Origin: Mycobacteriales bacterium
GTDB taxonomy: Bacteria > Actinomycetota > Actinomycetes > Mycobacteriales > SCTD01
Length of the DNA: 64,000 bases
Direction: 5' to 3'
Assembly: GCA_030697205.1 (NCBI GenBank)
Contig: JAUYQP010000045.1
Location: forward strand, 1-64,000
Part shown: positions 15,219 through 56,393 of the stretch, in pieces
Numbering within the stretch: the stretch's first letter is position 1
How the letters are laid out: each line of letters opens with the position of its first letter
Notes under the pieces: generated by a model
What the model saw: only the letters and a program-made list of their open reading frames with translations
Database searches by the model: none
What the model was told of the DNA's origin: nothing
Made by a program: the position numbers and the translations under genes

Positions 15219-15254
15219 GCGCGTCGCGCCCCGGCGTACACCCCCCGCCCTCGA

Positions 15255-15315
15255 CGAATGGGGATCCCCGTTCGCACGCGGGGCAGCCCCGGTGGCCAAC
15301 GGGGATCCCCATTCG
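15255..15315. repeat. Perfect 18-bp inverted repeat with GGGGATCCCC cores
   Basis: CGAATGGGGATCCCCGTT (15255-15272) is repeated as its exact reverse complement at 15298-15315; each arm is itself centred on the palindrome GGGGATCCCC, and a GGGGCAGCCCC hairpin lies in the loop. It separates glxK from erpA and could end transcription or fold as a cruciform. Confidence 0.7.
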
Positions 15316-15346
15316 CTGCGGGAGGGGCGGGATCGCGGCGGCGACG

Positions 15347-15843: not shown

Positions 15844-16019
15844 TTCGCGTCTCCGGGCCGGTCGGCGTGCCCTCGCCCGGATCCCCCGGCAGATGTGGCG
15901 ATCATGCGAGCGCACCCGACCGTGCGTGATCGCCACATCCCGCTCGGCGGGGGCGGGGCGGGGCGGCGTGGCGGGCTCGGCGGGGCGGCGCCGCTCGCGT
16001 GTCCGGGCCGGTCGGCGTC
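15838..16019. repeat. Pair of 32-bp direct repeats 150 bp apart
   Basis: GGCGCCG(T/C)TCGCGT(C/G)TCC followed by GGGCCGGTCGGCGT occurs at 15838-15869 and again at 15988-16019 with only two or three mismatches. The repeats enclose the palindrome at 15892-15940. The gap 15793-16106 holds no gene. Confidence 0.65.
15892..15940. repeat. 49-bp GATC palindrome, intergenic copy 1
   Basis: Opens GATGTGGCGATCATGCG and closes GCGTGATCGCCACATCC, an inverted repeat of about 17 bp. Lies between the convergent erpA and the gene ending at 16107. The same element recurs at 56345-56393 and three times inside the transporter gene at 42080-42334. Confidence 0.8.
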
Positions 16020-33977: not shown

Positions 33978-34883
33978 GTGACCGGGCCCCTCGCGCACGC
34001 GACCGAGCTGCCGGGCTTCTCGGCGGGGGTACTGCTCTCCGAGGCCCGTGCCGAGGTGCTCCCGCTGACCGCCCTGCTGGTCGCTGCAGCCCTCTACCTG
34101 TACGCCGTGACGCGGCTGCGTCGCCGGGGCGACTCCTGGTCACCGCTGCGCACGCTGGCCTTCGTCGGGCTCGGGCTCGGCACGATCGCGATCGCGCTGC
34201 TGAGCGGCCTGGCGGCGTACGACACGTCGCTGTTCGGCGCCCACATGGTCCAGCACATGCTGCTCGCGATGGTCGCGCCGGTCTTCCTCGCGCTCGGCGC
34301 TCCGGTCACCCTCGCGCTGCGCACGCTGCCGGCGCGCCCGCGCGGCTGGCTGATGGCGCTGCTGCACTCCCGGGTCGCGGCGCTGCTGACCTTCCCCCTG
34401 GTGCCGTGGCTGCTGTTCGTCGCGAGCCCGTTCGCGCTCTACTTCACCGGCTGGTACGACGCGACGCTCGACAGCGGTTACCTCCACGAGGCGCTCCACC
34501 TGCACTTCCTCGCGGTCGGCTCGCTGTTCTTCTGGCCGCTGCTCGGCATCGACCCGGTCCCCGGCCGGCGCTCCTACCCGATGCGGATGCTGCTGCTCGC
34601 GGCCACGCTGCCCTTCCACGCCTTCCTGGGCGTGGCGATCATGAGCGTGCCGGCGAGCGGGTCGAGCCTGATCGCCCGCGACCACTACCTCGCGCTGCAC
34701 CCCGTGTCGGAGGCCGTCTTCCAGCAGCAGGTCGGCGGCGGGCTGCTGTGGGCCTCCGGAGACCTCGTCGGGCTGCTCTTCCTCGCCGTCACTCTCACCC
34801 AGTGGATGCGGGCCTCGGAGCGGGAGGCCGCGCGGGAGGACCGGCGGCTGGACCGGCTCGACCGCGCGAGCGCCCCGACCTGA
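33978..34883 (+). CDS. Cytochrome c oxidase assembly protein, caa3_CtaG family
   Basis: 301 residues with seven predicted membrane helices. Conserved His-containing segments [41 protein letters not shown] and [14 protein letters not shown] mark the caa3_CtaG family, linked to CuB insertion into subunit I. It ends in a charged helix ([15 protein letters not shown]). Divergent from the ctaE-qcr operon, with which it belongs functionally. Stop overlaps the next start (TGATG). Confidence 0.9.
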
Positions 34884-41662: not shown

Positions 41663-43399
41663 TCAGAAGACGTCGCGGGCAGTGCCGAGACCGCGCACGG
41701 CGAGCGCGAGGCCGAGCAGGACGACGACGCCGGCGGTGAGGGCCGGGAGCAGCCGACCGAGCCGGCGGGTGCGGGCGAGTCGCCAACCGCGGCGCTCGGC
41801 GACGCCCTGCGCGCGCAGCAGCAGCAGGCCGGCGGCCACGAGGGTGGCCGCCATCCCGATGCCGTAGCCCAGGACGAGCAGTACGCCGAAGGGCGCGCGG
41901 CCGAGCGCGGTCGCCCCGAGCAGGACCACGAGCACCGACGGGCTCGGGACGATGCCGCTCGCGACGCCCATGGTGGCCAGGGACCGCCACGTGAGGGGAC
42001 GGTCGGGGGGCGGGGCGTGGCTGTGGGCTCGGCCGCCGTGGCTGTGCACGAGCACGGGTCCGGTCGCAGGCTCCTGCGGGATGTGGTGATCACTGTCGGG
42101 GTCCGAGCGCTCATGATCGCCACGTCCTGGTGAGGCGGGGGCGACGGGCTCGTGGTCGTGCGGGATGTGGTGATCACCGTGGGGGGCTGAGCGCGCATGA
42201 TCGCCACTTCCCGCGGAGGCTGAGGCGACGGGCTCGTGGGGGTGGTCGTGGGGGTGGTCGCGATCACCGTGGGGGTGGTCGTGGGCGATGTGGCGATCAC
42301 CGTGGGGGGCTGAGCGCGCGTGATCGCCACGTCCCGCGGCGGGGACCGCGGCGGGGTGGTCGTGGTCGGGGGTGCCGCGCAGACGGCGCAGCGCCCCGGT
42401 GAGCAGCCACGCACCGATGGCGACGAGCAGCACGCCGGACAGCACCTCGGTGGCGGGCACGACGCGCTCGGGGGCGACCAGGGTGCCGAGGTTGATGAGC
42501 AGGCCGAGCAGCAGCACCGACGCGGTGTGGCTGACGGTGACGAAGGCGCCGAGCAGCAGGGCCTGCCGGCGGGTGCCGCGGGTGCCGACGAGGTAGGCCG
42601 CCATGACGGTCTTGCCGTGGCCGGGGGCAAGCGCGTGCAGGCATCCGAACAGCACCGACAGCGCGAGCGCCCCCAGCCCGGTGAGCAGCCCGAGGTCGTC
42701 GCGGCCGACGAACGCGGTGAACTCCGCGGTCAGCCGGTCGACCCCGCGCGGCGCGGCGACGTCGGGCGCGGTGTCTCCCGCGGCCCCGGTCCGGCAGGGA
42801 CCACTCGCGAGGGAGACGGCGGCGGTGCGGACGTCCGGCGGCGACTGCAGTGACTCCTCGGGATAGGCGAGGAGCAGCTGCGACGGGGACTCGAGAGGTA
42901 CGTCGGAGGCGACCACCTCCCCGCACAGCGTGTCGGCGGTGACCTCCTTCCACCCGGTGCGGTCGGCGGCGGAGGAGTCGGTGAAGGCGAGTGATCGCGC
43001 CGGGCGGGTGTCGGTGCGCAGCGCGCACTCGAGCCGGGTCGTCGTGAGGCCGGCCTGACCGGGCAGGGAGCGGCCTGACGAGGACTCCAGCCGCAGCGGC
43101 GCGGGGGAGCCGTCGACCACGAGCTCCAGCTGGGGGAGGACCTGGGCGCACAGGGTCCCGGCGTACGCCGTGATCTCGGGGTCCGACAGCGACGCCGACC
43201 CGTCGGTGTCGGCGGTCTCGCGCAGCTGCACGGTCGGGATCTCGGCGAGGTCGACGACGTGGGTGACCGCGACGCCGGAGCCGTCGACGACCAGGCGGTC
43301 GGCGGTGTTGGTCGTGAAGTTGCCGAGCGGGTGCGCCCACGCCGCGGTCGGGAGCAGCAGCGCCCCCGTCAGCAGGCCCACTGCGACGAGGCGCCTCAC
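41663..43399 (-). CDS. NicO-family nickel/cobalt transporter with extracellular domain and His-rich loop
   Basis: 578 residues. A signal sequence (VAVGLLTGALLLPTAAWAHPLGNFTTN) is followed by a 240-residue extracytoplasmic domain, then a membrane part with the metal motif HALAPGHGKTV at about residue 275, three helices, a 120-residue Pro/His/Asp-rich loop (residues about 345-460), and three more helices. The loop contains three 16-residue repeats of the form GDHxRSxPxxDxHI, each encoded by a 48-bp palindromic DNA element. His-rich loops in this family bind Ni/Co. GTG overlaps the TPR gene stop by 4 bases. Confidence 0.87.
   Translation of the reverse strand: MRRLVAVGLLTGALLLPTAAWAHPLGNFTTNTADRLVVDGSGVAVTHVVDLAEIPTVQLRETADTDGSASLSDPEITAYAGTLCAQVLPQLELVVDGSPAPLRLESSSGRSLPGQAGLTTTRLECALRTDTRPARSLAFTDSSAADRTGWKEVTADTLCGEVVASDVPLESPSQLLLAYPEESLQSPPDVRTAAVSLASGPCRTGAAGDTAPDVAAPRGVDRLTAEFTAFVGRDDLGLLTGLGALALSVLFGCLHALAPGHGKTVMAAYLVGTRGTRRQALLLGAFVTVSHTASVLLLGLLINLGTLVAPERVVPATEVLSGVLLVAIGAWLLTGALRRLRGTPDHDHPAAVPAAGRGDHARSAPHGDRHIAHDHPHGDRDHPHDHPHEPVASASAGSGDHARSAPHGDHHIPHDHEPVAPASPGRGDHERSDPDSDHHIPQEPATGPVLVHSHGGRAHSHAPPPDRPLTWRSLATMGVASGIVPSPSVLVVLLGATALGRAPFGVLLVLGYGIGMAATLVAAGLLLLRAQGVAERRGWRLARTRRLGRLLPALTAGVVVLLGLALAVRGLGTARDVF
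42080..42127 (-). repeat. 48-bp palindrome inside the transporter gene, copy 1
   Basis: On the plus strand opens GATGTGGTGATCAC and ends ATGATCGCCACGTCC. Encodes GRGDHERSDPDSDHHIP on the minus strand. The most diverged of the three coding copies. Confidence 0.8.
42164..42211 (-). repeat. 48-bp palindrome inside the transporter gene, copy 2
   Basis: Opens GATGTGGTGATCACCG and ends GCGCATGATCGCCACTTCC. Encodes GSGDHARSAPHGDHHIP. Inner GGGGGGCTGAGCGCGC is shared with copy 3. Confidence 0.85.
42287..42334 (-). repeat. 48-bp palindrome inside the transporter gene, copy 3
   Basis: Opens GATGTGGCGATCACCG and ends GCGCGTGATCGCCACGTCC. Encodes GRGDHARSAPHGDRHIA. Closest to the intergenic copies at 15892 and 56345; a partial fourth left arm (GCGATCACCGTGGGGG) lies at about 42260-42275. 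Confidence 0.85.
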
Positions 43400-44706
43400 G
43401 AGGACGGCAGCGAGGCGAGCAGCGCCTTCGCGCGCGGGGCGTGCAGCGGGCTGAAGGCCGGGTTGAGCTCGAGCGCGCGGGTCAGCGCGGTGCGGGCCAG
43501 GGTGGTGTCGCCGGCGGCGGCCGCGATGGCCCCGAGGTGCCACTGGAAGGACGGGTTGCGAAAGCCGGTCCGCACCGCCTGCTTCGCGATCGGCAGCGCC
43601 TCGCGGGAGCGGCCGGCGGCGTGCAGCGCCCAGGCGTAGGCGTCCTGGACGTAGACCGCATGGGGCCGCGAGCGGTAGGCCGCGGCGGCCGAGGCGACGG
43701 CGGCGGCAGGCGTGCCGTGGTCGGCCTCGAAGACGGCCAGCTCGGTGTCGACGTCGGCGCCGGCCGCGGCGAACAGCTGCTGGGTGGCCCGCACGACGGA
43801 GTACTGCTGCTGCGCCGCCGGGGTCTGCCCGGTCGCCTCGAGCAGCTCGCCGAGCTCGGTGACGTACTGCGGGGCGGGGAGCCGCGACACGACCTCGCGG
43901 TAGTCGGCGAGCGCGGCCGTCGGGTCGCCCTGCGCCGCGAGCACCTTCGCGCGTCCCGCCAACGACGGGAGGTACGACGGGTCGGCGGCGAGCGCGCGGT
44001 CGTAGGCGGCCTTCGCGGCTGTCAGGTCACCGGAGGCCCAGGCGAGCTCGCCGAGGTACTGAGACGCGAACGCCTGGTCGGCCGGTGCGACGGCGTCCTC
44101 GCGGGCCTGCTCCATCGCCGCCTTGGCCTGCGCGACGTCGCCGCGCAGCTCGAGGACGTAGGAGAGCCGGGCGTAGGCGTCGGTGCCGGGTCGCAGCTGC
44201 ACCATCCGGTCGACCGCGCGGGCCGCCTCGGCGTACCTCCCGAGCTCCACGAGCGCGTCGGTCTTCACGCCGTAGGTGGTCGCCGAGAAGTCGTTGTCGC
44301 GCAGGGCCGCGTCGGCGAGCCGCAGCGCGTCGGCGAAGTCGTGGCGCGCGGCCGCGAGGGTCGCCTGGCCGGTGAGCGCGTCGGGGGTGGGCCGGATCGC
44401 GAGCGAGCGGGCGAAGGCGGTCTCGGCGCGGCCGTAGTAGGACGGGTCGGCGGTGAGGCGGGCCTTCTGGACGTAGGCCGAGCCGAGCTCGTGCCAGGCC
44501 CGGAAGTTCTTCGGGATCCGAGTGACGGTCGCGGTGAGGTCGGTGATCGCCGCGTCGAGCGGGTCGGCTGCCTCGGTGACCGTCGGGGCCGTGGGCGGGG
44601 CCGGCTCGGGGGTGCCCCCACCGGCGACCGCGCCGACCACGAGCAGCGCCGCGGCGAGCCCGACGATCGCGACGCCGACGGTGGCGCGACGGGCGAGGCG
44701 ATGCAC
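43396..44706 (-). CDS. Membrane-anchored TPR protein
   Basis: 436 residues. One N-terminal helix (ATVGVAIVGLAAALLVVGAVAGGG), a Pro/Thr linker, then about ten tetratricopeptide units (for example FRAWHELGSAYVQKARLTADPSYYGRAETAFARSL, ASQYLGELAWASGDLTAAKAAYDRALAADPSYLP). TPRs mediate protein contacts, probably outside the membrane here. The GTG at 44706 has GGAGGA 9 bases upstream. Coupled to the nickel/cobalt transporter; divergent from the second DUF4331 gene with a 155-bp shared promoter region. Confidence 0.85.
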   Translation of the reverse strand: MHRLARRATVGVAIVGLAAALLVVGAVAGGGTPEPAPPTAPTVTEAADPLDAAITDLTATVTRIPKNFRAWHELGSAYVQKARLTADPSYYGRAETAFARSLAIRPTPDALTGQATLAAARHDFADALRLADAALRDNDFSATTYGVKTDALVELGRYAEAARAVDRMVQLRPGTDAYARLSYVLELRGDVAQAKAAMEQAREDAVAPADQAFASQYLGELAWASGDLTAAKAAYDRALAADPSYLPSLAGRAKVLAAQGDPTAALADYREVVSRLPAPQYVTELGELLEATGQTPAAQQQYSVVRATQQLFAAAGADVDTELAVFEADHGTPAAAVASAAAAYRSRPHAVYVQDAYAWALHAAGRSREALPIAKQAVRTGFRNPSFQWHLGAIAAAAGDTTLARTALTRALELNPAFSPLHAPRAKALLASLPSS

Positions 44707-49236: not shown

Positions 49237-49389
49237 CCGCCGAGTCTGCGTCCGGGTCCTGCCTGGTCGCGGAGCCGGGGAACCAACCGTTCCCCCGGGG
49301 TGAATCGGCGCTTGGGCCTCTGCGTGCAGGGGGTGCGGCGTCGTAGGGCAGCTTCCGAGCCCGAACCCGACAGCTCACCCGGTAGGCGG
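49237..49389 (+). ncRNA. c-di-AMP riboswitch (ydaO/yuaA type)
   Basis: Recognised from the conserved landmarks in order: a CCGCC P1 strand at 49237, GAGCCGGGGAACCA, GGGGTGAATCGG, GTAGGGC, then CCGAACCCGACAGCTCACC and GGTAGGCGG closing P1 at 49385-49389. Binds cyclic di-AMP; ligand binding usually lowers expression of the downstream gene. Placement just ahead of a secreted NlpC/P60 cell-wall hydrolase is classic for actinobacteria, where it links c-di-AMP and osmotic state to peptidoglycan cutting. Confidence 0.93.
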
Positions 49390-49417
49390 GCGACGGAAGG
49401 ACAGGAGAGCCGCCGTC

Positions 49418-56344: not shown

Positions 56345-56393
56345 GATGTGGCGATCATGCGCGCTCGGGCTTGTGGGAGTGATCGCCACATCC
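56345..56393. repeat. 49-bp GATC palindrome, intergenic copy 2
   Basis: Opens GATGTGGCGATCATGCGCGC and closes GGAGTGATCGCCACATCC. Lies between convergent pimB and the ABC permease. Same element as 15892-15940 and the three coding copies at 42080-42334; its right half recurs alone at 28853-28868. Confidence 0.8.

Follow-up and report, generated by a model that had tools for sequence, protein, structure and literature searches.

The genome studied here carries a family of dispersed palindromes, some copies of which lie in frame inside protein genes, among them those encoding a NicO-family nickel/cobalt transporter and the cobyrinic acid a,c-diamide synthase CobB. This family is very probably a lineage-restricted, REP/BIME-like dispersed palindrome that spread non-autonomously. 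The first-pass annotation of the window (i.e. the whole stretch of DNA analysed, 64,000 nucleotides) had proposed that a spreading palindrome sits in frame in the NicO gene, and had conceded that the likeness would be fortuitous or local if the palindrome occurred nowhere else in the genome. A whole-genome search shows that it does occur elsewhere, with 59 copies in 4.0 Mb (118 covariance-model matches on the two strands), and the orthologues are without it. The proposal of a spreading palindrome in frame in genes is thus borne out by the genome-wide family and by an insertion of 16 codons in CobB.

The palindromes are about 48 bp long and follow the pattern GATGTGGCGATCA-N22-TGATCGCCACATC, with the family consensus GATGTGGCGATCAyGCnnGCnnnnnnnnGCnnGCrTGATCGCCACATC. 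Nearly invariant arms (GTGGCGATCA/TGATCGCCAC), which start with GATGTGG and finish with CCACATC, enclose a variable core of 22 nt that is symmetrically tagged by GC. Little or no variation is seen at consensus positions 4-12 and 37-45, while the core varies except at its symmetric GC pairs. In the flanks, a purine/pyrimidine preference is seen at the adjoining base only. Pattern searches of the genome found 30 pairs of perfect 13-bp arms, 46 palindromes of fixed length with at most three mismatches and 56 palindromes with looser arms, each time with zero control matches. An Rfam search with the palindrome found no matching family.

Two intergenic copies are present in the window, both between convergent genes and with no strand assigned, at 15892..15939 (covariance model 66.7 bits) and 56345..56392 (62.4 bits). 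Each measures 48 bp, not the 49 bp initially annotated (15892-15940 and 56345-56393). Three copies of 47 bp are located on the minus strand within the NicO gene (41663..43543, minus strand; intact ORF, 626 aa; PF03824, E 1e-13). Copy 1 (42080..42126; 41.1 bits, E 5e-8) encodes GRGDHERSDPDSDHHI with one flanking base, copy 2 (42164..42210; 48.2 bits, E 1e-9) encodes GSGDHARSAPHGDHHI and has a flank in common with copy 1 (84-bp unit), and copy 3 (42287..42333; 57.2 bits, E 6e-12) encodes GRGDHARSAPHGDRHI and has a core 95% identical to that of copy 2; these E-values refer to the window and are rough, as the calibration is short. The covariance model (R1) was built from 50 copies, the NicO copies being left out, and it finds all three of them, in line with the earlier claim that they share arms and part of the core with the intergenic palindromes. 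Moreover, 13 arm matches were counted in the window against 1.1 expected, a number reached in none of 100 shuffles. The likeness of the NicO copies to the intergenic palindromes is not due to chance. A weak model match at 34634-34676 (rough E 0.006), which sits in an ordinary membrane-protein gene, was rejected as a coincidence. The window also contains a c-di-AMP (ydaO/yuaA) riboswitch (49250-49404, plus strand; 55.9 bits), an imperfect inverted repeat of 58 nt (15227-15343; 76% complementary), which contains two GGGGATCCCC cores and is situated some 550 bp away from the palindrome at 15892, and strong inverted repeats at 2333-2395 and 2493-2551 (arms of 31 nt, 87%, and 26 nt, 85%), which are possible terminators.

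Each NicO palindrome needs one additional coding-strand G to make up 16 codons, and the distances between the starts of the copies, 84 and 123 bp, are divisible by 3. The frame is kept, as first noted, but the length of exactly 48 bp then given to the coding copies includes this extra G. In two of the three copies, a nearly invariant arm base is changed (C to T), turning CGC (Arg) into CAC (His). These two copies have a common right flank (80% alike), probably owing to a single duplication event, and appear to stem from local tandem duplication of an 84-bp unit, not from independent insertions. The loop that holds the three copies is predicted to be disordered (model residues 350-473, pLDDT under 50, in a model of modest overall confidence) and contains 24 His in 136 residues (18%), 10 of which are encoded by the palindromes. 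Orthologous NicO loops without palindrome possess 11-51 His (14-29%), vary in length and show at most isolated, imperfect half-site likenesses. Because these loops are equally His-rich, the element most likely entered and lengthened a loop that was already His-rich beforehand. The suggestion that the palindrome supplied metal-binding sequence is thus only partly supported, and any metal binding is putative. A benefit of the palindrome-encoded residues for the transporter is possible.

The strongest proof of a spreading palindrome that enters genes in frame is the clean 16-codon insertion in CobB (P0002; TIGR00379/NF002204). There, the palindrome (L064:4026-4072, i.e. G000:C10:109625-109671) occupies 16 codons in frame, translated as DVAITDGAQAGVIATS, in the linker that joins the CbiA domain to the glutamine-amidotransferase domain. 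The 16 extra residues of this linker are the translation of the palindrome, and every orthologue covering the linker is without them: in most, the stretch from a conserved W to RPVVAV is shorter by exactly 16 codons, and nearly all have the same shorter length. The insert falls at a low-confidence linker of the structure model and is predicted to be disordered. The frame in which the palindrome is translated differs between NicO and CobB. Both of these clearly decorated genes concern cobalt/B12, possibly by coincidence. Only 4 of the 59 copies are clearly inside genes; all are 47 bp long and the net gain in CobB is 48 bp, lengths that fit selection for frame. Other copies are less certain as coding sequence: an HTTM-domain gene facing a purA-like gene is predicted to draw its C-terminal tail and stop from two palindromes (L076:3932-4052), and a further palindrome runs across the predicted start of a mycothiol-S-transferase/DinB-like gene.

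The elements mostly occur in close pairs, with 26 neighbour pairs in total. The centres are 84-86 bp apart in most pairs, and otherwise 74-76, 94-97, 102 or 123-124 bp apart; the edges are mostly separated by 37-38 bp, and also by 27-28 and 46-49 bp. These pairs are direct and have near-identical cores. Core likeness is far higher between neighbours than across loci (in most pairs, p is about 0.02 or lower), while the flanks of neighbours are at background likeness in most pairs. Such near-identical cores shared between unrelated flanks are the least explained feature of the family. Tandem duplication of the palindrome with its linker accounts for about five loci (NicO, L061, L081, L084 and part of L073). 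For the remaining pairs, the sequences suggest that the palindrome alone was copied or homogenised at a preferred distance. The spacings of 74-76, 84-86 and 94-97 bp are near whole helical turns, which hints at a bound protein, helical phasing outside the 84-86 class being suggestive only (7 of 9 spacings). Copying of the palindrome, without flanking DNA, to a site at a set number of helical turns by a non-RAYT mover or a DNA-binding protein, the same process making the NicO protein repeats, would be one explanation, which we regard as speculative and rather unlikely.

It is possible, though not probable, that the palindromes are binding sites of a nucleoid or regulatory DNA-binding protein and that the coding copies are kept as sites, not for their peptide. 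About 10 arm positions are nearly invariant. Such constant arms around variable cores might reflect selection on a site bound by a protein; the conserved GC blocks of the core are symmetric and 10 bp apart, the arms are about three helical turns apart, and the near-whole-turn spacings of neighbours are of the same nature, but with the phasing only suggestive outside the main class. Covariation of the core base pairs is not above that of shuffles except for the innermost one or two pairs, and there is thus no sign of a selected longer RNA stem. However, the elements are absent from most relatives, and in the two NicO copies with the C to T change, an arm base that hardly varies elsewhere has been lost. 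The genes adjoining the elements have no common functional theme, for which reason the idea of a regulon was dropped.

The position of the elements relative to genes, called for this purpose by a simple codon-usage script, is strongly biased. The 28 gene junctions with elements comprise 13 convergent and 15 co-directional ones, and none is divergent, against 31% expected from the divergent share of comparable intergenic bases (p about 3e-5). Most elements start 11-100 bp 3' of a stop codon. Since their hairpins are also stable (mean -28.6 kcal/mol), the elements might be transcription terminators or mRNA 3'-end stabilising hairpins, spread for their usefulness after genes. This is doubtful, as no U-tract follows the hairpin (average 0.9 T in the 10 nt downstream), the core pairs do not covary, the nearly invariant arm sequence exceeds the needs of a stem, and the NicO and CobB copies would stop transcription inside genes. 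Finally, the reading of the NicO repeats as an ordinary His-rich coding repeat, similar to the palindrome by chance or convergence, has next to no probability left and is refuted by the genome-wide family: related loops are indeed His-rich and variable in length, and the 84-bp duplication is local, but the NicO copies match the arms and core of a model from other loci, orthologue loops show at most scattered half-site likenesses, and CobB bears the same palindrome in another reading frame.

Outside this genome, the covariance model detected about 1-9 copies in each of four species of a related genus (g6) and no copies in the other 19 genomes of the family; by pattern search, no copies were found in 375 further genomes of the order. 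In one genome of this genus (G015), an element is present at an orthologous gene junction where six congeners are without it, the edges of the exact intergenic empty site not being resolvable between flanks that are too diverged. Five pattern matches in viral contigs were taken as chance, as each is a lone copy in which the outer arm bases are all missing. At two loci (L072 and L075, contigs C27 and C31), palindromes are found no more than about 160 bp from a contig end, in C27 at both ends. Palindromes at contig ends may break the assembly and hence be undercounted.

We looked for the mover of the preferred reading, a non-autonomously spread palindrome. The Y1/IS200 (RAYT-type) transposase PF01797 is absent from the genome, which is 100% complete, while control genomes were positive. 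Some REP-bearing strains have lost their RAYTs, so this absence alone is not decisive (PMC3733652). The GTAG/CGTC tag of the REP superfamilies is also absent from the palindrome ends, so that the family agrees with none of the known REP classes. As in MITEs, terminal inverted repeats are present in the form of the arms, but a target-site duplication is not: at the element edges, direct repeats between 2 and 10 bp long are not convincingly in excess (best z about 2.4, among many offsets). None of the unpaired half-sites listed flanks a larger element. In the broad sense, the family is REP-like, being a short repeated palindrome, mainly extragenic, near gene 3' ends and often paired; it is also RPE-like, being in frame in genes and absent from orthologues (CobB and the NicO loop).

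The likeness to REP/BIME elements (Di Nocera 2013, PMC3733652) extends to tens of copies with a patchy distribution between species, to a location between convergent or co-directional genes near 3' ends with some copies inside genes, and to frequent dimers with 20-100 bp spacers. The present family differs by a 48-bp dyad with a 22-nt core (20-40 bp for REPs), by the missing GTAG or CGTC tag and IS200/RAYT transposase, and by direct pairs with near-identical cores and mostly unrelated flanks. Intragenic REPs are known in several other bacteria, with a 3'-end preference, and REP dimers have spacers of like length but different sequence (PMC3733652). The parallel with the RPEs of Rickettsia drawn in the first-pass annotation is thus apt but not unique. 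In both families, palindromes are in frame inside unrelated protein genes and apparently tolerated, but RPEs are reported to be about 150 bp long, to encode a conserved peptide and to lie in genes in nearly half of the cases (PMC10969869), unlike the 48-bp elements described here with their two different reading frames and few genic copies. In-frame cases have been described for RPE, ERIC and QMITE (PMC10969869, PMC5896051). MITEs such as ERIC and the Coxiella QMITE are likewise non-autonomous and dispersed, and some are fused to genes in frame or lengthen a C-terminus; here, no target-site duplication was detected, there is no internal region beyond the palindrome, and the half-sites listed revealed no related insertion sequence. 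Actinobacteria are not mentioned in PMC3733652, and searches of open-licence papers for actinobacterial REP or intragenic palindromes brought up no case. In-gene palindromes are known from other bacteria, while this family and its putative fixed-distance self-copying appear to be undescribed.

The family, its 3'-end bias, the CobB insertion, the lack of the palindrome in orthologues and the likeness of cores within loci are established by the data, from which we infer that mobility is the cause of the spread. A non-autonomous palindrome would spread through some mover that leaves no detectable target-site duplication, and would be tolerated mainly in the first 100 bp past stop codons. New copies would then arise nearby, as a rule some 38 bp away from one already present, by the copying mechanism that the pairs suggest. 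Occasional copies would enter genes and be kept where the net length holds the frame (48 bp) and the site is a flexible linker, as with the single copy of CobB and in the His-rich NicO loop, where the copy number would have risen to three, partly via the in-frame 84-bp duplication. The encoded peptides would be neutral or mildly useful. As far as the open-licence literature goes, this is the first clear example among actinobacteria of a dispersed palindrome inserted in frame into protein genes, for which CobB gives a clean with/without comparison. As a REP-like system without RAYT, it lends itself to testing whether local copying or a different mover spreads such repeats, and it indicates that tolerated insertions can lengthen disordered, metal-binding-like loops.
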